Origin: Clostridia bacterium
GTDB lineage: Bacteria; Bacillota; Clostridia; UMGS1883; UMGS1540
NCBI GenBank assembly: GCA_017436645.1
Contig: JAFSCR010000013.1
Coordinates: forward strand, 1-52,800
Direction: 5' to 3'
Length of the DNA stretch: 52,800 bases
The notes under the pieces were generated by a model. That model saw only the letters and a list, made by a program, of their open reading frames with translations, did not search any database and was not told where the DNA came from. This document shows, one piece after another, positions 7,711 through 50,593 of this stretch (position 1 is its first letter; each line of letters begins with the position of its first letter). Made by a program: the position numbers and the translations under genes.

Positions 7711-8289
7711 CTATTCTTCCTGCATTTCACGAATAAGACGATCGACCGCCGCAAGCGGAAGGCCTACCACATTCAGAAAATCGCCTTCTGTCTTCTCAAC
7801 CAGCGCGCCGCCTTTCCCCTGTATGCCGTAGGCGCCGGCTTTATCCATGGGTTCACCCGTTTCGATATATGCGCGGATTTCATCGGCTGAAAGCGCACGG
7901 AAAGTAACTTTCGTTTCTTCGAGATGGGTTTTCATCTTGCCGTCCGAAGTGCGAAGGAGCGCAACCCCTGTATACACCGAGTGGGTTTTGCCGCTTAAAG
8001 CCGAAAGCATGGAAAATGCTTCTTCCGCATCCCCCGGCTTTCCCATCACCGTACCCGAAAGCACCACAACCGTATCTGCCCCAAGCACAAGACCTGCACA
8101 CCCCTTTGCAGCCTCAGCTGCTTTTGCGGCGGCAAGAAGCTGTACCATAAGGCGGGGCTCCAGCCCTTCAAAAACCGATTCATCCACATTGGCAGGCAAA
8201 ACCTTGTGGGGAATGCCGCCTTCTGTCAAAATTTCCCGACGACGGGGCGATGCAGATGCCAGTATTAATTTCGGTGCTGTGTTTCCCAA
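7711..8289 (-). CDS. maf: Maf-family nucleoside triphosphate pyrophosphatase
   Basis: A 192-residue house-cleaning pyrophosphatase, dTTP/UTP or modified-nucleotide type. The N-terminal LASASPRRREIL motif binds phosphate and metal; the catalytic-base segment is LGADTVV, and the tail has DKAGAYGIQGKG. The start is a TTG at 8289 behind an AAGGGGAAG site. It is the first gene of the maf-mreC-mreD-PBP2 run, the usual order in Firmicutes except that radC and mreB are missing. Confidence 0.93.
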   Translation of the reverse strand: MGNTAPKLILASASPRRREILTEGGIPHKVLPANVDESVFEGLEPRLMVQLLAAAKAAEAAKGCAGLVLGADTVVVLSGTVMGKPGDAEEAFSMLSALSGKTHSVYTGVALLRTSDGKMKTHLEETKVTFRALSADEIRAYIETGEPMDKAGAYGIQGKGGALVEKTEGDFLNVVGLPLAAVDRLIREMQEE

Positions 8290-30825: not shown

Positions 30826-32844
30826 TTATTTAAGCCATTCTTTTTCGAAAAATTCTTTCTGACCCCAGTCCGTTAAAAACATGGCTACGAACGAGTGCGT
30901 CATGTGGAAGAGGGATGTGTTCCACTTAAGCTCTTTACCCCATGCTTCAAAGGTTGTGGTTGCACCTTCACGAAGCATGCGGAGCCATCTGCCTTCGTGA
31001 CCGATATAGCTCTTCAGTTCTTCTTCCTTACCGAGGCGCAAGAAACCGATAAGAGAGGACATTGCCGTATAGAAATTCGTAAGCTCGGGGTCTTTTTCCA
31101 TCAGCATTTTAACGATTCTTTCTTCCGTTTCCTTATCGGGGCAAAGGTCATAACGAAGCGCAATCGCATTGCCGGGGGCGCTTACATGGGGGGATTCCGC
31201 CGTATCTGTAAAGAAGCCCTGCGCCTTATCATAGAACTTTTCCATATAGGAATTATAAATGGGCGTTATATCTTTATAGGGCTTTATGCCGATTTTCTTT
31301 GCAATACTGTTCATTGCCTTTAAAGCGCCGAGATAATATGCATTCAAAACGTTATGGGTGCCAGGCGTAAGACCTATGCTGTTACTTACAAAATCATAAC
31401 CGTCACGGGATTCCTTCGGCCAATCAATCACGCACCACTGGTCCACATCATAAAGAAGACCATCTTCTTTTGCGAAAGATGCTTCAAAATAATCAAGCAC
31501 AGCGGCAAACTTATCATAGCATTCTTCGGCAAAATCCGTACGCTTTGTAATATACATATGCATAAGAAGATATTCGGGAATCATCAGAACATAGTCCGTT
31601 GTTTCCTGAATCAGGCTGCAAGGAGAAATCATAACAAGGCCGGGGTGAAATTTAGCGCTTCTGAGTGCTTCTCGTATGAGCTTTTCAAAAATCGCCGTAT
31701 CTTTGGTAACCACGGAAAGGGCCATAGAGTCCATAAGTCCGTCACAAAGATACTGCCCCTTTTCTCTTTCAAAGCAGTCCTGAATAATATCCTGCACGCC
31801 ATAATGCAATGTATTAGTAGCAAGTTTCCATATTTTTTGCAGATTTTCCTCTTCATATTGGCAAACCGCTTTTTCTTCATAGGGATAGTGGCGAACCTGT
31901 GCGGTGAAATCAAGAATTTCCACATCTTTGCTGCAAAGATAATCTACGTGGCGGAAGGTTTTATAATCGTATTCCAAAAGGGTATCCTCGCCCCCTGAAA
32001 GCACCCATTCTTCCTCATACGTTGTGGATGCACGCATTTTGTAGCGGACGGAGCCGTCCTCATTCAGTTCGTGACCGCAACGGTAGGTGATAACTTCTCC
32101 TTCGGGGCCTTTGGCACGGGTCATCAAATTTCCCACATAACAAGCACCGTAATCCACGCGGTATCCCCCATCCACCTTCTCAACCTTCTGAGGCTTTATA
32201 TAGGAAATGGAAAGCTGACGGGTGGGCTGGGGTGATAGGGTGTAATCAAGATAGGTGCGACCTGCCGCATTTTCCCATTTTGTATCATCAAAATCGGGCT
32301 TTTCAAAGCCCACTTCAAGGCTGCGGCTATCATATCTTTCCAAATACTGAAGGCGGTAGCCTGCCACTTTAAGAGGCGTAAAGCCTGTATGCAGGGCGCA
32401 TTTTACCGTTTCATCGCTTTTTGCAAGAACTTTGCCATCCTGTACAATATCGAAAAGGAGACCGCTTCTGTCATCATTGGAAACCCAATGGCGGTTATTC
32501 AGCCCCTGATAATAACAGTGGAGGGCGATGGTGTTCTCCCCTTCGTTTACATAATCCGTAATATCAATTTCATTATAGTAATAATGGAACGGGAAGGCAG
32601 GGCAAGGACCTTCCGTTACATATTTTCCGCCAATATAAAGCTTATAATAATCGTCCGCTGTGATGAAGAGGGTGACCCTTCCACTTCCTTTCACCTGAAA
32701 ACGTGTGCGAAACAGCATATGGCTATCCCCGGGTGTTACATTATCAAAAATAATGGCGCCTTCTTGTCTTTGCCAAACTTCCACGGGTTTAATATTGCGA
32801 AATGCAGGCATTGTTATCCATTTGCCGGAAAAATTATGTTCCAT
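30826..32844 (-). CDS. GH78 alpha-L-rhamnosidase-like protein (copy 1)
   Basis: A 672-residue glycoside hydrolase without a signal peptide, so intracellular. The N-terminal half is beta-sandwich, including a jelly-roll module (ITADDYYKLYIGGKYVTEG, HCYYQGLNNRHWVSNDDRSG). The (alpha/alpha)6 catalytic domain begins near residue 340, with IQDCFEREKGQYLCDG, which corresponds to the acidic catalytic region of GH78. The C-terminal half ends with TTTFEAWG. It should release terminal rhamnose from imported oligosaccharides. It is a close paralogue of 34097-36115 and of identical length. Confidence 0.85.
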   Translation of the reverse strand: MEHNFSGKWITMPAFRNIKPVEVWQRQEGAIIFDNVTPGDSHMLFRTRFQVKGSGRVTLFITADDYYKLYIGGKYVTEGPCPAFPFHYYYNEIDITDYVNEGENTIALHCYYQGLNNRHWVSNDDRSGLLFDIVQDGKVLAKSDETVKCALHTGFTPLKVAGYRLQYLERYDSRSLEVGFEKPDFDDTKWENAAGRTYLDYTLSPQPTRQLSISYIKPQKVEKVDGGYRVDYGACYVGNLMTRAKGPEGEVITYRCGHELNEDGSVRYKMRASTTYEEEWVLSGGEDTLLEYDYKTFRHVDYLCSKDVEILDFTAQVRHYPYEEKAVCQYEEENLQKIWKLATNTLHYGVQDIIQDCFEREKGQYLCDGLMDSMALSVVTKDTAIFEKLIREALRSAKFHPGLVMISPCSLIQETTDYVLMIPEYLLMHMYITKRTDFAEECYDKFAAVLDYFEASFAKEDGLLYDVDQWCVIDWPKESRDGYDFVSNSIGLTPGTHNVLNAYYLGALKAMNSIAKKIGIKPYKDITPIYNSYMEKFYDKAQGFFTDTAESPHVSAPGNAIALRYDLCPDKETEERIVKMLMEKDPELTNFYTAMSSLIGFLRLGKEEELKSYIGHEGRWLRMLREGATTTFEAWGKELKWNTSLFHMTHSFVAMFLTDWGQKEFFEKEWLK

Positions 32845-32846
32845 AT

Positions 32847-33374
32847 CTATCCTTCTCCATTTTCTTTTTTGAAATCATACCGCACCATTGCGGTAACAAT
32901 CGAAACCATGGACAAAACATCGCCAATACACGAACCATAAGCACCGGAGGCAAAATTATAAATAAGCCAAAAGGGCGTTCCCATAAGGCATATTATGCGA
33001 ATTTGCTTTTCACTACTGAGCCAAAAAGAGCCTGTATGCATCATAACGGCTATAATCGGCAGTATGCTTAAAAAGCTTTCATATACAAGTACACCCATAA
33101 GAACAATCAGAATATTCACGCCAAGAATACAAGCTTTAAAGTGCTTTTGCACAAAGGAAACATCCTTTTTTTGGGCAAAAAACGTTGCCACGGTGCCGGC
33201 AATATCCAGCGCCGCACCCTCAAAAGCACCTAAAAGCAAATATTGCAGAATATAGAGTATTCTGGACGTTACATTGAAAAACAATATGTTTTTTCGTTTC
33301 TTTTGCTGATAACACAAAAGATATAACGCCACCGCCAAAAGGCCAACCAAAAAGGCTATGGGTTTCAAATTCAT
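32847..33374 (-). CDS. YgjV-family inner membrane protein
   Basis: A 175-residue protein with about six hydrophobic helices and the family pattern FNVTSRILYILQYLLLGAFEGAALDIAGT near the start. YgjV-like proteins are small membrane proteins of unsettled function, sometimes near sugar catabolic genes. It sits between an SGNH gene and GH78 copy 1 with gaps of 15 and 2 nt, so it is part of that operon. A transport role for the oligosaccharide is possible but unsupported. Confidence 0.75.
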   Translation of the reverse strand: MNLKPIAFLVGLLAVALYLLCYQQKKRKNILFFNVTSRILYILQYLLLGAFEGAALDIAGTVATFFAQKKDVSFVQKHFKACILGVNILIVLMGVLVYESFLSILPIIAVMMHTGSFWLSSEKQIRIICLMGTPFWLIYNFASGAYGSCIGDVLSMVSIVTAMVRYDFKKENGEG

Positions 33375-33389
33375 AATACCGTCCTCTTT

Positions 33390-34100
33390 TTAGCGGAACA
33401 TGGTTTTTACAAGTTCCTCTGCAAACAAATTGTGCATTTCTCTTGTGGGATGGTTGATTTGATTGGAAAGGAGAGTATGAACATCCACGCCCGCATCCCG
33501 CATTTCTTTCCATTTTTTATGACAGTCACAAACGGGAATGTTTCTTTCCCTGCAAAGTTTTTTTGCCTCTTCCAAAAAGAGTTCCAAATCGCCGCGCCGT
33601 TCGCTTTCGGCAATATTGGAAATAGCTTTCTTTGTTGTTTCGTCCATTCCCGTCATATCGGGATTGGTGCCACGAAGATTGGGTGTCATAAAGATAAGCT
33701 CTGCACCATAGCCTTGGACACGGTCAAATATTTCTTTCAGGGCGCCGGAATAGGTGGGCAGATAATCCTTTCCTCTTGTGGCATCGTTTAAACCAAAGCA
33801 GACGGTGACAAGGTCAGGCTGAAAGCTCAAAACATCTCTTTCCAGGCGTTCAAGCCCGCCATCCGCTCTTCCGCCGCTTCGTCCTGCATTGATAATGGCC
33901 GGAGAAGATGCCGGAAAATGCCGAAGAAGAATTGCCCGCATTTTCTCCACATAGCCGCTCATAGGGTCAAAAACGGGGTTTGTGCCGCTTTCAAGTTCAA
34001 AGCACCCCTGGGTTACGCTATCACCAAGGCATACGATGGTAGGCTGGCGATGACCGAAAATATCTTCATTTTTTGCTTTCAGTTTGTCAATAATTTTCAT
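33390..34100 (-). CDS. SGNH/GDSL-family hydrolase (copy 3)
   Basis: A 236-residue paralogue of the two SGNH genes at 29215-30678. Block I is LGDSVTQG, block III FGLNDATRG, block V NQINHPTREMH; Gln replaces the Asp at -3 from the His. Its start overlaps the stop of GH78 copy 2 by 4 nt, so enzyme and esterase are made from one message. The pairing GH78 then SGNH is repeated twice in the cluster, supporting joint action on one acetylated, rhamnose-bearing glycan. Confidence 0.85.
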   Translation of the reverse strand: MKIIDKLKAKNEDIFGHRQPTIVCLGDSVTQGCFELESGTNPVFDPMSGYVEKMRAILLRHFPASSPAIINAGRSGGRADGGLERLERDVLSFQPDLVTVCFGLNDATRGKDYLPTYSGALKEIFDRVQGYGAELIFMTPNLRGTNPDMTGMDETTKKAISNIAESERRGDLELFLEEAKKLCRERNIPVCDCHKKWKEMRDAGVDVHTLLSNQINHPTREMHNLFAEELVKTMFR

Positions 34101-36115
34101 TTTGAAATTTCCTTTACATATTCGTCCTGACCCCAGTCAGTAAGATAGAGAAGTACAAAGGAGTACATAAGGTGGAAGAGAGATGTATTCCACTTAAGGT
34201 CAAGTCCCCATGCTTCAAAGGTGGTTGTGGCACCTTCTCTTAGCATCCGGAGCCATCTGCCCTCATTTTTAATATAGGCAAGTTTTTCTTCTTCCCTGCC
34301 GAGGCGTGTGAAGGAGGAAAGAACGGAGAAAGAAGTGTAGAACGCTGTCTTATGCGCTTCCTTCTTCATAACCATATCAATGATTCTTTCCTGTGTTTCT
34401 TCATCGGGGCAGAAATCATAACGGAGAGAAAGAATATTGCCGGGGACACTTACGTGCTTTGAGCCTTCTGCATCAATAAAGAAGCCCTGTTCTTTATCAT
34501 AGAACATATCCATAAAGGATTTTACGATGGGCGCCTCATCCATAAATTTCTCTCTGCCCAGCAGTTCGGCAAGCTTATTCAGGCTCTTAATGGCACCGAT
34601 ATAATACGCATTAACAACGTTATGAAGGCCGGGAGAAACACCGCAGCCTTTAATTTCAAAATCGTAACCGTCACGAGCAGGCTTGGGCCAATCCACAAAG
34701 CACTGCTGGTCAACATCACGAAGAAGCCCGTCTTCCCCGGCAAAGGATTCTGTGAAGTAGCGAACGGAATCCGCAATGGTGTCATACCAGGTGTTTGCAA
34801 ATTCTGTATTTTTCGTAAGATAAGCATGGGTTAAAATGAATTCGGGAACGAGGAGAACATAGTCGGAGCTTTCCTGCATAAGAGAACAAGGTGCACAAAT
34901 CATAAGCCCGCGGTGGATTCTGTGGGTGCGAAGGGTATCCGCAATGAGCTTTTCAAAGATTGCATAGTCGCCTGTTAAAATGGCATAGGCGGTGGAGGTA
35001 TAAAGTCCGTCACCTAAATACTGTCCCTTTTCTCTTTCGATGCAGTCCTGAATAATGTCCTGTACGCCGTAGTGGAGGCTATCTGCCGCAAGGCGCCAGA
35101 TTCTCTGCAGGTCGGGATCGTCATATTTACATACAGCTTTCTCTTTGTAAGGATAGTGGCGGAGCCGTGCTTTAATATCATAAATTTCGGTGCCTTCTTC
35201 GCATATGAATTCTGCATAGCGGAAGCTTACATAGTCATACTGAGAGTAGGCATCCTCTTTTCCGGACAACACCCATTCCTCCTGATAAGTAGCGGAGGCG
35301 CGCAGCTCATAGCGGACAGAGCCGTCCTCATTCAGCTCGTGGCCGATACGGACTAAAACAGTTTCTCCGTCCTTACCCTTTGCCTTTGCCGTCACATAAC
35401 CAATATAGTTTCTGCCAAAGTCAACCCTGTAGCCGCCATCGAATTTTTCGAGCTTTACCGGCTCTACATCATAAATAGAAAGCTGGGGTGTGGGCTGGGG
35501 CACGAGAACGCGGTCATCGTGGAGGCAAAATGCTGCCTGTTCCCATTCAGAATCGTTAAATTCAGGCTTTTCAAATCCCACTTCAGCGCTTCTGCAATCG
35601 TAATTCTGGAGGAAATAAAGGCGATAACCGGTAACACCGATTTCCTTATAGCCGGAGTGAATCTTGCATTTTACAGATTCGTCACTTTTTGCAAGAACTT
35701 TTTCGCCCTCTACAATATCAAAGATAAGACCGCTTCTGTCATCATTGGAAACCCAATGGCGGTTGTTAAGACCCTGATAATAGCAATGGAAGGCTACGGT
35801 GTTTTCACCGTCCTTCACAAATTCAGAAATATCCAGTTCATTATAGTAATAATGGAACGGAAATGCGGGTGCAGGTCCTTCCGTTACGAATTTACCATTT
35901 ATGTAAAGTTTATAATAATCGTCAGCCGTTACAAACATTTTCACAGGCTTTGTGCCTTCTGCCGTAAACTTTATGCGAAACAGCATATGGCTGTTTGGGG
36001 GCGTAACATTTTCTTTATTTCCGGTGTCATCCGCCATTCTGTGAAAAACATTGACGGGAGCAATGCCAGAAAACTCTGGTCTTGTAATCCATTTGCCTTC
36101 AAATTTATGTTCCAT
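34097..36115 (-). CDS. GH78 alpha-L-rhamnosidase-like protein (copy 2)
   Basis: A 672-residue paralogue of 30826-32844, with nearly identical blocks (HYYYNE, CYYQGLNNRHWVSNDDRSG, IQDCIEREKGQYLGDG, TTTFEAWG). The catalytic-region motif keeps the Gly-Asp that copy 1 has as Cys-Asp. It has no signal peptide. I chose the ATG at 36115 behind AAGGAAGGAG; a codon at 36169 falls upstream of the predicted -10 box and cannot be the start. It heads the operon GH78-SGNH-YgjV-GH78, and its substrate is probably an imported rhamnoside. Confidence 0.85.
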   Translation of the reverse strand: MEHKFEGKWITRPEFSGIAPVNVFHRMADDTGNKENVTPPNSHMLFRIKFTAEGTKPVKMFVTADDYYKLYINGKFVTEGPAPAFPFHYYYNELDISEFVKDGENTVAFHCYYQGLNNRHWVSNDDRSGLIFDIVEGEKVLAKSDESVKCKIHSGYKEIGVTGYRLYFLQNYDCRSAEVGFEKPEFNDSEWEQAAFCLHDDRVLVPQPTPQLSIYDVEPVKLEKFDGGYRVDFGRNYIGYVTAKAKGKDGETVLVRIGHELNEDGSVRYELRASATYQEEWVLSGKEDAYSQYDYVSFRYAEFICEEGTEIYDIKARLRHYPYKEKAVCKYDDPDLQRIWRLAADSLHYGVQDIIQDCIEREKGQYLGDGLYTSTAYAILTGDYAIFEKLIADTLRTHRIHRGLMICAPCSLMQESSDYVLLVPEFILTHAYLTKNTEFANTWYDTIADSVRYFTESFAGEDGLLRDVDQQCFVDWPKPARDGYDFEIKGCGVSPGLHNVVNAYYIGAIKSLNKLAELLGREKFMDEAPIVKSFMDMFYDKEQGFFIDAEGSKHVSVPGNILSLRYDFCPDEETQERIIDMVMKKEAHKTAFYTSFSVLSSFTRLGREEEKLAYIKNEGRWLRMLREGATTTFEAWGLDLKWNTSLFHLMYSFVLLYLTDWGQDEYVKEISK

Positions 36116-36141
36116 TTTTATTACTCCTTCCTTTTTGGTCA

Positions 36142-36170
36142 CTATACCACAATAGCCGAGAAAATGCAAG
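36142..36170 (-). promoter_or_regulatory. Promoter of the GH78/SGNH operon
   Basis: TTGCAT (36165-36170) and TATAGT (36142-36147) on the minus strand, spacer 17 bp, about 27 bp upstream of the GH78 copy 2 start. It is divergent to the ABC exporter promoter. Confidence 0.65.
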
Positions 36171-42875: not shown

Positions 42876-42964
42876 GGAGAAGTATCGAAGTGGTCATAAC
42901 GGACATGACTCGAAATCATGATACCCCTCGAGGGCCGTGGGTTCGAATCCCACCTTCTCCGCCA
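42876..42964 (+). tRNA. tRNA-Ser (anticodon CGA)
   Basis: A class II tRNA. The acceptor stem is GGAGAAG/CTTCTCC, the anticodon loop CTCGAAA on stem CATGA/TCATG (anticodon CGA), and the long variable arm ATACCCCTCGAGGGCC. The T-arm has GGTTCGAATCC, and the CCA (42962-42964) is encoded. Phage-type DNA begins straight after it, making its 3' end the probable prophage attachment site. Confidence 0.95.
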
Positions 42965-43096: not shown

Positions 43097-43192
43097 GTCT
43101 ATACTCCTATAACGCAATCCGTTATTTTCTAACAATTTCCAGACAAATAGTAAAATAATTGTTAGAATATATCGTAAAGGAGTAAAAAGGCT

Positions 43193-43444
43193 ATGATTAG
43201 AATTTTGTTATCCACCCGTCTTGGCGAACGGAGATGGACACAAGCCGACCTTGCTCGTGCAACAGGTATAAGACCATCCACCATAAATGAGATATACCAC
43301 GAAATTGCAGAGCGAGTAAATTTAGAGCATCTTGACCTTATATGTGAGGCGTTAGGTTGCGAATTATCCGACATAATTGTACGCACACCAAACGCTGATG
43401 TTCGTGTGAATACGCGAGTTGGCGTTGCCCTACATAAAGATTGA
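43193..43444 (+). CDS. Small XRE-family HTH regulator (YozG-like)
   Basis: An 83-residue DNA-binding protein. The helix-turn-helix is TQADLARATGIRPSTINEIY (residues 16-35), followed by a helix with LEHLDLICEALGCELSDII, the usual Cro/C1-type fold. The AAAGGAG site at about 43177 fixes the ATG. It points toward, and ends 57 nt before, the convergent repressor gene. A role in prophage control is likely, but its operator is unknown. Confidence 0.85.
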   Translation: MIRILLSTRLGERRWTQADLARATGIRPSTINEIYHEIAERVNLEHLDLICEALGCELSDIIVRTPNADVRVNTRVGVALHKD

Positions 43445-43501: not shown

Positions 43502-43711
43502 CTATACAATAGTTCCGTCCGGGAAAACAAATTTACATTCAAACTCCGCTCCGAGAGCCTTAGCGATTTTCTCTAAATCTTCGGAAGAGAATTTGCCTGT
43601 TTTCATTCGCTGACCGAACGCCTGTGATGATGTACCAATACGCCTTGCTAATTCTGCCTCGCTGATGTTTGCGTATGTCTCCGCAAGTTTAATCTTTGTT
43701 GATATATCCAT
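43502..43711 (-). CDS. Small XRE-family HTH repressor
   Basis: A 69-residue Cro/C1-type protein consisting almost only of the HTH fold (EAELARRIGTSSQAFGQRMK, residues 20-39, then FSSEDLEKIAKALGAEFECKF). I start it at 43711: the in-frame ATG at 43729 is followed directly by AGGAGG, which is the ribosome-binding site of the later ATG. Its promoter and the divergent rightward promoter share an inverted operator-like sequence, so it is the candidate lysogeny repressor. Confidence 0.85.
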   Translation of the reverse strand: MDISTKIKLAETYANISEAELARRIGTSSQAFGQRMKTGKFSSEDLEKIAKALGAEFECKFVFPDGTIV

Positions 43712-43741
43712 CCCCGCACCTCCTTTCAAGTGTTCAACATC

Positions 43742-45623: not shown

Positions 45624-46466
45624 TTATTTGTCGAATGCTCCGGCTCTGTCAAGCACAACCATAATACGAATCATATCGTCTGTAAGATTGAGCTTTCCTT
45701 CCTGGTCTCCTCTAAGATACCCTTTTTCGCAAAGCTTTGTGATAGTAGGCCTTGCCCATTCAGGCATATTGCCATCCACACAAGCATAGACCATCTTATT
45801 TGAGTTTGTCGCAAGTTCGTCAACTTTTTTGCGTATGCCCTCAACTGTATCTACAAGCATATTAAATTTTTGTTTTTCTTCAAGAGTCATAGGTTCGTCC
45901 TCCTCATTGCTCAATAATCTTTTTACATCTGCCCTGAATGTGTCCATTGACTTCCCGTGTTTCGGAAACCAATGCATAACATCTCCGTGGTTGGATGCAA
46001 TTCCTTTTTTGTAACCCTCCGAATGACAGATGATATTCTGTTCGGTAAGATTAAATTCTTTGCAAAGGTACGCACAGAGCTCAACGGCCTCTTTATACAC
46101 CGCGTTGAAATAATTTGCATCTGCAAGTCCATCCTCGCAGATTTCAAATCCTATATGTGTATTGTTTGAGGAGCCGCCTCCGTGCCATCCCCTGTGATTC
46201 CAGGGTAATGTTTGATAAGTCGCAATGCTGCCATCTGCAAGTTTTCCGATAAAAGCGTGAACGCACACTTGTATTCCTCCGGGCCTTGCAGTGTTCCAAT
46301 GATTTCCGTTTTTGTTCACGCCAAGAAAACCATCATCCGGTCCGACATATCTTTTCAGCCAAGGATTGTTTGCTCCTGTGGAGTGTACCATAATTCCTTT
46401 GACATCAATTTTCTTTCCGGCTTTGTAGCAGTCATTGTTGACAAGAATCAGTTTTCTCAAATCCAT
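45624..46466 (-). CDS. Endolysin: N-acetylmuramoyl-L-alanine amidase
   Basis: A 280-residue phage lysin. The N-terminal Amidase_2 domain (residues 1-190) shows zinc-binding and catalytic segments: GIMVHSTGAN (first His), WHGGGSSNNTHIGFE, and ICHSEGYKKGIASNHGDVMHWF near the end (His and Asp). A linker with a short coiled coil leads to a C-terminal ~50 residues resembling an SLH-type wall-binding repeat (MPEWARPTITKLCEKGYLRG). It would cut the bond between muramic acid and the stem peptide. It follows the holin by 15 nt. Confidence 0.9.
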   Translation of the reverse strand: MDLRKLILVNNDCYKAGKKIDVKGIMVHSTGANNPWLKRYVGPDDGFLGVNKNGNHWNTARPGGIQVCVHAFIGKLADGSIATYQTLPWNHRGWHGGGSSNNTHIGFEICEDGLADANYFNAVYKEAVELCAYLCKEFNLTEQNIICHSEGYKKGIASNHGDVMHWFPKHGKSMDTFRADVKRLLSNEEDEPMTLEEKQKFNMLVDTVEGIRKKVDELATNSNKMVYACVDGNMPEWARPTITKLCEKGYLRGDQEGKLNLTDDMIRIMVVLDRAGAFDK

Positions 46467-47550: not shown

Positions 47551-47601
47551 AAAAGCAACCCTGTGAGGTTGCTTTTCCTAAATGCAACCCTACAAGGTTG
47601 C
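47551..47601 (-). terminator. Tandem hairpins after the reverse transcriptase
   Basis: Two hairpins with the same 6-bp stem GCAACC/GGTTGC sit in tandem (stems at 47555-47572 and 47584-47601). The distal one on the minus strand is followed by six T, an intrinsic terminator. The proximal one contains the stop codon (47590-47592) of the reverse transcriptase. Confidence 0.7.
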
Positions 47602-48696
47602 GTTTATTTGATTTTCATTTTCTGTGTGCCTTACCAATACAAAATCATTTATTATCTTATTTCTCAAAGATTCGCAATCGCAATGTTTGAGTAGTCCGAG
47701 ATAACTTTGAAATACATTTTTGCAATAATCAAGAGGCAGTTCTCCTGTGGAGTAATGCTCCATAATATACGCTATGTGTTTCTTCAACTGCAGAGATGTA
47801 CTTTTCCGCAGTTCCACTCGTCCCGGATAAACTTTTCTGCCGACAAATTCAACAGGATTGCCTACGGGTATAACCGCAGTCTTTTCGTTGAGTTGTAGCC
47901 CGAAATTCTCTTGCAAGTAATCATCTACCTGGCCGACAGTTTCCCACGCTTGCGATTTTGAGGGAGTCAAGAAAATCATATCATCCATATATCGCATATA
48001 GTATGGCACTCTAATCTCACGCTTTATGTAATGGTCAACAGGTGTCAACACAACATTAGCAGTGAGTTGTGATATAAGCGAGCCTGTCTGCATTCCAATT
48101 CCTGATACGCGTTCAGCCGTCGTTACATCAGTACAACGCAAAGGCAGTCCGAAAGGTCTGCCATCACATTTGATAGCGGTTTCTAAAAACCACATCATAT
48201 CATTGTCATCAAGCGGTCTGCCGAGTTCCCGGAGCTGTACCTCCACAGGCAAGCGGAAAAAGAATTTTGTTATATCCATTTTCCCTATATACCACTGTTG
48301 AGGTTTCCTTTCGGTAATCTGCATCCACTCCTGTAATTTTTTTACGGCTCTCAACGCACCCTTTTCAGGTACACTACCGTAACTATGCTCATAAAAAGAT
48401 TTTGAATATATCGGCCACAACACTTTGTAAGCAGCAGCATTTACAACTCTATCGGAGAAAGGCATAGAATAAATAATTCTCTTTTTCGGGAAGTATTCCA
48501 TAAACTCGAAAGGCGTTCCTGTTTCATATGTTTTCCACAAGAGCCTGTTCAAATCGTTTATGATGTATTCCTCAAGGTTGGCGGAATATTGTAGCACACC
48601 GCCCGAATATCGCTTATTTCTGCGAGCGAGCAAGTATCCGTCATACAAATTTTCAAATGTTGCAAACCTTTCAAAAATATGCGAGTGCTTTTCCAT
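47590..48696 (-). CDS. DGR reverse transcriptase
   Basis: A 368-residue group II-intron-like reverse transcriptase of the diversity-generating retroelement type. Palm motifs: the first catalytic Asp in GKMDITKFFF (Asp141), the diagnostic DGR box GSLISQ (residues 205-210, SQ where other RTs have SP), and YMDD at 236-239. A thumb region follows (KSTSLQLKKHIAYIM). There is no endonuclease or maturase domain, as expected. With Avd it copies the template-repeat RNA and misincorporates at adenines. A GGAG site precedes the ATG at 48696, 172 nt downstream of the template repeat. Confidence 0.96.
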   Translation of the reverse strand: MEKHSHIFERFATFENLYDGYLLARRNKRYSGGVLQYSANLEEYIINDLNRLLWKTYETGTPFEFMEYFPKKRIIYSMPFSDRVVNAAAYKVLWPIYSKSFYEHSYGSVPEKGALRAVKKLQEWMQITERKPQQWYIGKMDITKFFFRLPVEVQLRELGRPLDDNDMMWFLETAIKCDGRPFGLPLRCTDVTTAERVSGIGMQTGSLISQLTANVVLTPVDHYIKREIRVPYYMRYMDDMIFLTPSKSQAWETVGQVDDYLQENFGLQLNEKTAVIPVGNPVEFVGRKVYPGRVELRKSTSLQLKKHIAYIMEHYSTGELPLDYCKNVFQSYLGLLKHCDCESLRNKIINDFVLVRHTENENQINATL

Positions 48697-48868
48697 TCCA
48701 CCATCTCCTCAAAGGCCACACTTTACGGATGCCGTACTCAAAGAGCCGGAACATCAGTATATGTAGCTGACATTTTTCGGCTGTAATCTATAACCGAGGA
48801 AATAAACTCCTTTACTCCTCTGCACTGAAAGTAAGCCCTTGAGCTTACAATATCTGGCCACAAGGTAG

Positions 48869-48981
48869 AGCGGAACGGAAACCGAGGTTGTCGTTCGCGT
48901 TGGAACGAGGGTTGTTGCCGTTGTAGTAGAACACGCCCGCGTTGTCGTTGTCGTTGTAGTTGCCACCGCGGTAGAACAGGC
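48869..48981 (-). repeat. DGR template repeat (TR)
   Basis: A 113-bp non-coding copy of the variable repeat, in the gap between avd and the RT. In the frame of the target protein it would read with many Asn codons (AAC), the codon type that gives most diversity when adenines mutate. It has 27 adenines on the coding strand by my count. A GTAAGC/GCTTAC hairpin (48831-48848) lies in the spacer between TR and the RT gene and may form part of the structured template RNA. Confidence 0.96.
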
Positions 48982-49009
48982 CGCCAAGTTTTACAGTTTA
49001 TTCCCTATG

Positions 49010-49360
49010 TCAAGTGGAGTGTTGGTTATTGACGGACTTTAACCATCCACCGAGCATCTTTCCAATCTCAACCACCATTCCCGACCATACCTCATATTTT
49101 TTCAGAGGCAAAAATCCGAGTGTGAATGATAGTCGAAGATAAGCCTTTAATGTTGCTATCTCAACATCCATATCTTGTAGTGTAGTCTTTTTATAATATT
49201 TTTTCTGTGCCTCAATACACCTTTTAAGCAGAATATCCATACTATGCTTAATGTCGGTAACGAGAGCAAATTTCTCCGACTTTGGAAATTGTTGTAGTGC
49301 CTGATAGCCGTATTGCATCATATCAAAAACTTTCTGCAATATTCTTAATTCTTCTGCCAT
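49010..49360 (-). CDS. avd: DGR accessory variability determinant (Avd)
   Basis: A 116-residue basic helical protein of the four-helix-bundle Avd family. It has four predicted helices, with LPLKKYEVWSGMVVEIGKMLGGW at the end as in other Avd proteins. Avd forms a pentamer that binds the RT and template RNA and is needed for cDNA synthesis. I prefer the ATG at 49360 (AAGGG eight bases upstream); a GTG at 49369 is the alternative. The template repeat begins 28 nt after its stop. Confidence 0.9.
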   Translation of the reverse strand: MAEELRILQKVFDMMQYGYQALQQFPKSEKFALVTDIKHSMDILLKRCIEAQKKYYKKTTLQDMDVEIATLKAYLRLSFTLGFLPLKKYEVWSGMVVEIGKMLGGWLKSVNNQHST

Positions 49361-49430
49361 CTCACACACCCTTATTTACAAAATCGACGAGAACATTATA
49401 CACCTAATACGGAGTGTTGTGGTCGATTTG

Positions 49431-49458
49431 TGAAAAAATAACGGAATGCGTTATTTTT
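49431..49458 (-). terminator. Hairpin upstream of avd
   Basis: Stem GAAAAATAACG/CGTTATTTTTTC around a five-base loop, flanked by A/T tracts on both strands. It may end the tail-gene transcript before avd; a TATAAT on the minus strand at 49394-49399 could start a separate avd-TR-RT transcript. Confidence 0.45.
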
Positions 49459-49476
49459 CAAAATTCAAAAATCGCG

Positions 49477-49494
49477 TCTCCGCTTACGCGGAGA
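49477..49494 (-). promoter_or_regulatory. Perfect hairpin downstream of the variable repeat
   Basis: A perfect 7-bp stem TCTCCGC/GCGGAGA with a four-base loop, followed on the minus strand by CGCGATTTTT. It could be a terminator or part of the cruciform that promotes retrohoming. Confidence 0.5.
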
Positions 49495-49503
49495 AAAAGG
49501 AAT

Positions 49504-49525
49504 GAGAGCCGCTATCGCGACTCTC
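49504..49525 (-). promoter_or_regulatory. Hairpin 3' of the variable repeat
   Basis: Stem GAGAG.CGC/GCG.CTCTC with one internal mismatch and loop TATC, 37 bp beyond the 3' end of the variable repeat. DGR targets often have a DNA hairpin or cruciform in this place that raises homing efficiency. Confidence 0.5.
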
Positions 49526-49546
49526 AACAGAACACAGTTCCGCAGA

Positions 49547-50593
49547 TTACAGTTTGACAAAAGCGGAACGGAAACCGAGGTCGCCGCCCGCGTAGGAACG
49601 AGGGCTGCTGCCGATGCAGTAGAACACGCCCGCGCCGCCGTTGTCGACGTAGTTGCCACCGCGGTAGAACAGGCATTCGCCTGATGTTGATACATAGTAG
49701 TAATCATCTCTGTATGTATCAGCAGCATCATTCGGGAATAATGCAAGAGCTTTTACAAGTGGGGGAATTGTTACGCCACTTGCAGCAGTTGCCTCCTTGA
49801 ATGTGCCGGAAGTGGTAATTCCTGCAGAGCCATATTTGATAGTGCCACTTGTTCCGGGAGCAACATATGCACCCGACTGATTGATTGCTTTCCAAAGCGT
49901 ACTTTCTGCACTCTCGTCAACGCCCATGGCCGAGTTGTTGTCCTGAATAACTTGGAGCTCTCCGTTCTTAACTCTTACGCCGCCAACCCATTCGTACACA
50001 TTTCCGTTAAGGTCAGCAATGCCGGAGAAATCGTTGTTATGGAACCACGACTTAGGACCGGAGCCTGTTGCCGTGTAAGGAATATCATCCCATCCGTCGT
50101 CCGGGTTATCAGGGTTATAATATACTCTTTCGGGCATTGGTGCACCCTTTTCGGATGTGTTGTAATAATCTCCGTAAGAATAATTGTTGTTACCATACGG
50201 CATACAGTCATTCTTTTTACACCAAAGAGCGATTGCCGCCCACTCGGCATTTGTCATAAGATGCCATCCTTCGCCTTTTGCCTCACAAGCGGCTTTCGCC
50301 TGGTCAAAATTGATTGTGTGCTTTGGTCTTTGGTATGGGAGCGAGTACGCTCTGCCATCCTCGACAATATTCTGATACTTGGAAATATAAATGTATGGTA
50401 CTTCCTGACCATTGACCATAAAAGCGGGATGAACACCCGAGCCTGACAAGCCTACATCTGCATAGGTAAATTTCGGAATCTTTACCATTACGGATGGTCT
50501 ACCAAGGTCATCCACGATAATCTCATTGTTCGGTGGTAACACAAGATTGCTCAAACTGTTACCGTCTGCCTGTGTCATTAACTTAATATCCAT
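49547..50593 (-). CDS. DGR target protein with FGE/C-type-lectin domain (probable tail adhesin)
   Basis: A 348-residue protein without a signal peptide. The N-terminal ~100 residues are beta-rich and probably attach to the tail. From about residue 105 it has the formylglycine-generating-enzyme-like C-type-lectin fold: GWHLMTNAEWAA (110-120) and ADLNGNVYEWVGG (193-205). The last segment, residues 307-344, is the variable repeat with LFYRGG and LGFRSAF at its constant ends. Diversified surface residues would alter receptor binding. It starts by a 1-nt overlap (TAATG) with the preceding gene, downstream of a tail-fibre gene. Confidence 0.92.
   Translation of the reverse strand: MDIKLMTQADGNSLSNLVLPPNNEIIVDDLGRPSVMVKIPKFTYADVGLSGSGVHPAFMVNGQEVPYIYISKYQNIVEDGRAYSLPYQRPKHTINFDQAKAACEAKGEGWHLMTNAEWAAIALWCKKNDCMPYGNNNYSYGDYYNTSEKGAPMPERVYYNPDNPDDGWDDIPYTATGSGPKSWFHNNDFSGIADLNGNVYEWVGGVRVKNGELQVIQDNNSAMGVDESAESTLWKAINQSGAYVAPGTSGTIKYGSAGITTSGTFKEATAASGVTIPPLVKALALFPNDAADTYRDDYYYVSTSGECLFYRGGNYVDNGGAGVFYCIGSSPRSYAGGDLGFRSAFVKL
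49562..49674 (-). repeat. DGR variable repeat (VR)
   Basis: 113 bp at the 3' end of the target gene, aligned without gaps to the template repeat. There are 14 substitutions, all at template adenines (11 A-to-G, 3 A-to-T on the coding strand), and none at the other 86 positions. Eleven codons change, including Asn to Val, Gly, Ile, Ser, Tyr or Asp, and Tyr to Cys. The last 20 bases are identical in both copies and act as the initiation-of-homing region. Confidence 0.96.

Follow-up and report, generated by a model that had tools for sequence, protein, structure and literature searches.

What switches on a diversity-generating retroelement (DGR), an element whose timing or regulation has been stated to be open (PMC11792537; PMC12875486), is the question raised by a 52,800-b window comprising the whole of contig JAFSCR010000013.1 of a Clostridia bacterium. 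At 47590-50593 the window carries a complete DGR in a likely prophage. We found that the promoter of this DGR shares a 31-bp control site with the gene of a small helix-turn-helix (HTH) protein of the HTH_26 family. We consider it likely that this is a complete, probably functional temperate-phage DGR placed under an HTH_26 switch that would bind the shared site. The earlier note on this DNA, which described the retroelement, overlooked both the HTH regulator and the shared control site, which lie partly outside its coordinates. What appears to be novel is this control site common to the DGR promoter and the HTH gene, which recurs in dozens of related phages; the DGR itself is of a known kind. 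In the list below, avd is the accessory variability determinant, TR the template repeat and RT the reverse transcriptase.

43108-43138, plus strand: control site of the HTH gene, in its own promoter, TATAACGCAATCCGTTATTTTCTAACAATTT
43161-43173, plus strand: second dyad GTTA-N5-TAtC, within which lies the HTH promoter -10 TAGAAT (43163-43168); proposed autoregulatory site
43193-43444, plus strand: gene of the Cro/C1-type HTH regulator (HTH_26), 83 aa; proposed DGR regulator
49395-49400, minus strand: avd-TR-RT promoter, -10 element TATAAT, which follows the control site by 24 nt
49425-49455, minus strand: DGR control site, 31 bp, AATAACGCATTCCGTTATTTTTTCACAAATC, in the avd-TR-RT promoter

The HTH protein matches PF13443 at 1e-18, with 67.6 bits against a cut-off of 22. 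Its AlphaFold2 (AF2) model (predicted local distance difference test, pLDDT, of 55) only places helix 28-41 after helix 17-24, and Foldseek gave no match below 0.001. The core of the control site is a palindrome, AATAACG-N5-CGTTATT, which on the DGR side sits between the hairpins that follow the target gene and avd. Allowing at most one mismatch, this palindrome occurs at two places in the 1.75-Mb genome: before avd (0 mismatches) and 66 bp upstream of the HTH gene (1 mismatch), about 6 kb from the DGR. With a motif derived from HTH promoters only, the DGR site scored 27.7 bits and the HTH-gene site 38.2 bits, and a scan of the pieces of contig C21 of the same genome revealed no additional control site. 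The palindrome on the avd side is kept in relatives L003-L007 and L009, and L008 carries a compensated variant.

For the survey of related phages, viral contigs were searched with the HTH protein alone as the query. The 31-bp motif, TATAACgnAATnCGTTATAATcTAACAAAtt, was built from 60 non-redundant HTH genes, upstream of which it recurs; the DGR promoters were not part of the training set. The threshold for a site was 13 bits (13.0 per locus), the 99th percentile of shuffled loci. When DGR-bearing loci were scanned with the HTH-promoter motif, the best other site was almost always the DGR promoter. Among the non-redundant viral HTH loci, a second site was present in 26/29 loci with an RT (RT+) vs 2/33 without one (RT-; p=6e-12), and 25 of the 26 second sites were located upstream of the RT and on its strand. 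The bacterial contigs gave a similar result, with a second site in 17/23 RT+ vs 2/54 RT- non-redundant HTH loci (p=3e-10). In the two sets, 41/43 second sites were on the RT strand, 0.36-4.0 kb upstream of the RT, and their distances form three groups, which fit a site before avd, before the TR (avd undetected) or before the target gene. When six complete phage records with a DGR (48-74 kb) were scanned, the two top sites were, overlapping matches aside, those of the HTH and DGR promoters. The HTH gene itself also keeps company with RTs: 31/50 records with an HTH homologue contained an RVT_1 match, compared with 3/32 for the neighbouring phage XRE gene, which served as a control (Fisher p=2e-6). 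Cultured commensal lysogens carry the pair as well, for example Acetatifactor muris DSM 23669 (L296) and Yanshouia hominis BX1 (L238). Conversely, 49 DGR loci found via their RT and having no HTH homologue in the fetched stretch showed no convincing site (best 11.5 bits, at one locus). Loci with a site and without the HTH gene numbered two, both of them short contigs. The sites are therefore located at the HTH's own gene and at DGR promoters, and they track the presence of the HTH gene, not that of the DGR.

With regard to the promoters, the spacing is nearly invariant. From the end of the motif to a TATAAT-like -10, 49/56 HTH promoters have 24 nt and 27/29 DGR promoters 23-25 nt, which places the control site at approximately -67 to -37 in both. 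The site consists of three half-sites, TAACG-N5-CGTTA-N5-TAACA, with a spacing of 10 bp. At the position expected for a -35, the match to TTGACA was no better than in shuffled sequence. Activated promoters are built in this way, with a fixed upstream site and a -10 that lacks a -35, comparable to lambda CI at PRM. Given the fixed upstream site and the well-placed -10 without a -35, activation is favoured, and we lean towards the view that the HTH protein would activate both promoters. A second dyad, GTTA-N5-TAAC, covers the -10 (at least 6 of 8 matches) in 49/56 HTH promoters and in only 6/29 DGR promoters. As this dyad is common at the HTH promoters and rare at the DGR promoters, it suggests that the HTH protein may limit its own level but not the DGR.

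The proposed switch would work as follows. The small HTH_26 protein, encoded at the edge of the prophage, would bind the three-half-site 31-bp array at two promoters, that of its own gene and that of avd-TR-RT, and would activate both, while the second dyad over its own -10 would cap its level through negative feedback. The avd-TR-RT transcript would provide the TR RNA, whose adenines the RT would misread, and the altered cDNA would replace the variable repeat (VR), which encodes part of the C-terminal lectin domain of a protein associated with the tail, as expected from the anatomy of the cassette and the known DGR mechanism.

The best surviving alternative is that the HTH protein binds both sites as a repressor, the DGR being silent in the lysogen and released upon removal of the repressor. 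Most annotated phage relatives of the HTH protein are named repressors, XRE proteins often autoregulate via palindromes (PMC12565409), silencing of the hankyphage master repressor, the phage HTH protein RepC_HP, was followed by virions with a DGR-diversified VR (PMC12135933), and the second dyad, which covers the -10 of the HTH gene, would have a repressive effect on that gene. Nevertheless, the site is located upstream of the would-be -35, at a near-invariant 24 nt from the -10 of promoters that have no -35, which is an activator layout, and the -10 dyad is missing in most DGR promoters. We therefore regard repression as possible but rather unlikely.

A further indication concerns which protein would recognize the site. 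Residue 29 of the HTH protein, with which the recognition helix begins (GIRP-S/T/N-TIN), is variable, whereas most residues around it vary little or not at all. In the HTH promoters, a serine at this position goes with CGTTAT, a threonine with CGTGAT, and an asparagine with CGCTAT or CGATAT. GCT or GAT was found in 41/47 promoters of the asparagine type vs 0/78 others, and GTG in 29/31 of the threonine type vs 5/94 others. At the DGR promoters, which lie several kb away, GAT occurs solely with asparagine (8/12 vs 0/27, p=8e-6). Such covariation is the trace that direct recognition by the HTH protein would leave, and the HTH_26 protein is most likely the binder of the 31-bp array. The motif could instead be the site of another protein, such as a host factor or an alternative sigma factor, the HTH gene being just a second client, and the combination of site, spacing and -10 does resemble a promoter class. 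This explanation is improbable, however, since the operator bases at both promoters covary with a single residue of the HTH recognition helix, DGRs without a nearby HTH gene have no site, and the whole host genome has only two close sites.

Several observations weigh against direct control of DGRs by the HTH protein. With HTHs of the threonine type, the DGR site usually reads GTT instead of GTG. The p-values for covariation ignore descent, and a tree of the 83-aa HTH protein provided no more than 1-2 independent contrasts with support, almost all of them pointing the expected way. The viral and bacterial sets have some phages in common and are not fully independent. The second site is absent from 3/29 viral and 6/23 bacterial RT+ loci, and some HTH-bearing phages have no DGR at all. 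The Faecalibacterium phages Pioen, Taranis and Roos carry, as here, a DGR and an HTH homologue (57-74% identity), but their operator has drifted and no recognisable site is present at the DGR. Finally, some phages have a third site in the vicinity of genes for recombinases or immunity, which indicates that the HTH regulator is not only for DGRs. We give even chances to a broader reading, according to which a widespread HTH_26 family of Clostridia phages would directly control DGRs, switching on its own gene and the DGR via a shared activator site at a fixed distance. Mutation of the adhesin would then be a state of the lysogen that is under regulation and possibly bistable, and several DGR lineages, with and without avd, would have acquired the site at the head of the TR transcript.

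The proposed switch would act on a cassette that comprises the following parts.

47590-48696, minus strand: DGR reverse transcriptase, 368 aa, with motifs GSLISQ and YMDD
48751-48870, minus strand: structured RNA Rfam RT-14 (RF02921), the spacer from TR to RT
48869-48981, minus strand: TR, 113 bp
49010-49369, minus strand: avd, with a GTG at 49369; the ATG at 49360 is the likelier start
49477-49494, minus strand: second hairpin, 7-bp stem and GTAA loop
49503-49526, minus strand: post-VR hairpin/cruciform, 10-bp stem and GATA loop (GRNA type), after the stop codon of the target gene
49547-50593, minus strand: DGR target gene, FGE-type C-type lectin variable protein, 348 aa
49562-49674, minus strand: VR, target codons 308-344, C-terminal

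The earlier note had described a lectin-fold target with a C-terminal VR, an Avd protein, a 113-bp TR and a DGR-type RT with GSLISQ and YMDD, all apparently intact and in the canonical order on one strand. This description was borne out in full: all the parts are on the minus strand at the coordinates it gave, with the open reading frames (ORFs) as described. The best relative of the target among solved structures is 5VF4 (phmmer 6e-54), the crystal structure of TaqVP, a Thermus DGR variable protein with the FGE-type C-type lectin fold (PMC6328139). The target also matches PHROG 2889 (2e-115) and, under the cut-off, PF03781 (2e-4); its AF2 model (pLDDT 47) was too poor for fold assignment. The TR and VR, 113 bp each, are 88% identical, and their 14 differences are all at TR adenines (11 A>G and 3 A>T). 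As only 27 of the 113 TR positions are A, this is far beyond chance. None of the differences creates a stop codon, and the VR is the sole other copy of the TR in the genome. At one surveyed locus (L120, 3251-5282), the VR is downstream of the RT, not upstream, and the control site is still before avd.

The Avd protein reached 114 bits against NCBIfam DivGenRetAVD (NF033474; cut-off 80) and 2e-30 against Pfam bAvd. The RT is the only RVT_1 match in the genome (9e-19), and its closest PHROG is 1423, 'Reverse transcriptase' (6e-96). Its closest solved structure is 8ub7 (8e-29), which we take to be the BPP-1 RT, while RTs of the group II intron or retron type matched at 1e-14 or weaker. A group II intron or retron assignment was rejected, the respective models being far under their cut-offs (group II maturase 88.7 bits vs 300). 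By its sequence, the RT is of the DGR type. The RT-14 RNA scored 49.5 bits, just over the gathering score of 48.1, and its position exactly between TR and RT suggests a role for this RNA family as a spacer RNA of DGRs. The GATA-loop hairpin has a folding z of -4.8 and is in line with the 5'GRNA loop rule that DGR homing hairpins obey (PMC3240598); the second hairpin has counterparts in the close relatives L003, L007 and L008.

Given the adenine-only TR/VR differences, the Avd, the RT similarity, the lectin-type target and the GRNA-loop hairpin, the cassette is a complete DGR, ordinary as such, and probably functional. The earlier note also took the element to be possibly active and the prophage to be probably able to switch receptors; both readings are inferences. 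It could be a relic, in which all parts are present and mutation has ceased: no near-identical phage copy with a different VR was found, and the contig is truncated. We hold this to be a slim chance, since the RT, avd and target ORFs are open, the TR and VR differ at adenines only and without a stop, the homing hairpin is present and the RT-14 RNA is over its cut-off. That an ordinary DGR is transcribed late in the phage cycle or constitutively, its palindromes being terminator remnants or chance, is very improbable, for although inverted repeats are common after target genes and terminator-like hairpins are located just upstream of the control site, the scores of 27.7 and 38.2 bits against the 13.0-bit percentile of shuffles, the co-occurrence statistics and the fixed spacing to the -10 all argue against it.

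Comparison with known systems shows which features are shared. The DGR of Bordetella phage BPP-1 (Mtd/Avd/TR/Brt) has the same order of target, avd, TR and RT, adenine-only differences and a C-type lectin target. A GRNA-loop hairpin after the VR is also common to both (PMC3240598), and the RT resembles 8ub7. In contrast to BPP-1, no (GC)14-type IMH (initiation of mutagenic homing) element was seen here, the hairpin is about 35 bp from the VR, just outside the published 4-34 bp, the spacer contains an RT-14 RNA, and the control site is paired with an HTH gene, for which no description of a BPP-1 counterpart was found. The DGR of Faecalibacterium phage FP_Lagaffe (NC_047911) shares the SUMF1/FGE-type target and the order with Avd and RT, the RT being 37% identical, but FP_Lagaffe gave no HTH homologue match and has no control site. 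Whereas RepC_HP is a CI-like master repressor of lysogeny acting on most phage genes (PMC12135933), the putative sites of the HTH protein are found chiefly at its own gene and at the DGR. Autoregulated XRE/Cro-C1 regulators (PMC12565409) are likewise small HTH proteins with a dyad in their own promoter; unlike them, the HTH protein has a second, putative site in DGR promoters, fixed relative to the -10. Roos and Pioen, which carry HTH homologues, were the two phages that showed VR read diversity in all samples (PMC11792537). This diversity was discounted as support for the switch, since neither has a control site at its DGR. No published DGR-linked HTH regulator or operator was found in the open full text (PMC) that was searched, most subscription papers and preprints being outside this scope. 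The regulator gene, the putative binding site and the predicted specificity residue make the question of how a DGR is switched on testable, and could offer a handle for inducing the DGR in culture.

The earlier note had placed the DGR in a prophage, which is likely; the far end is outside the contig and no right attachment site (attR) was found. Two further features belong to this context.

42876-42964, plus strand: tRNA-Ser, probable left border of the prophage
45624-46466, minus strand: prophage endolysin (amidase), Amidase_2 2e-16 and PHROG 15001 7e-70

To the left of the tRNA-Ser, the sampled genes that could be named belong to the host (PEPCK, RNase J, rhamnosidases and a tadA-like deaminase). 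To its right, the HTH gene is followed by a further XRE gene, by small phage ORFs and the endolysin, and then by the DGR and tail-fibre-like genes, which continue to the end of the contig. The contig stops at 52800 and cuts the prophage, leaving only about 9.8 kb visible. The prophage thus likely adjoins the tRNA-Ser. A candidate attR, a 35-bp match to the tRNA-Ser end on contig C21, was rejected because it is located in an apparent second tRNA-Ser gene and is not an att site. Beside that second gene, at 15616-16770 of C21, is a zinc-ribbon, serine-recombinase-like ORF, possibly part of another mobile element. The second XRE gene of the prophage (43502-43729) and the HTH gene are convergent, and the two nearest relatives of this XRE gene (L166 and L167) likewise lie on contigs with an RT. 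On the host side of the contig, at 30826-36169, two alpha-L-rhamnosidase genes flank a GDSL esterase.

The HTH family has further sites in other phages. In Pioen (L314), the HTH homologue and the serine resolvase are each preceded by the same 18-bp operator, TACCGAAAATCGGAAAAA (31019 and 32764), which suggests that the family may also control phage recombinases. An older function of the HTH protein in the lysogeny module, followed by a later recruitment of DGRs, would be consistent with such sites. Third sites in immunity regions were found at L200 5566, L212 14923, L215 19369, L232 16512 and L157 6543; these five precede small ORFs beside XRE-like repressors or serine recombinases, the genes being named by eye. 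At L308, a locus without an RT, two tandem control sites (7834-7901) directly precede a 338-aa gene, apparently that of a tyrosine recombinase.

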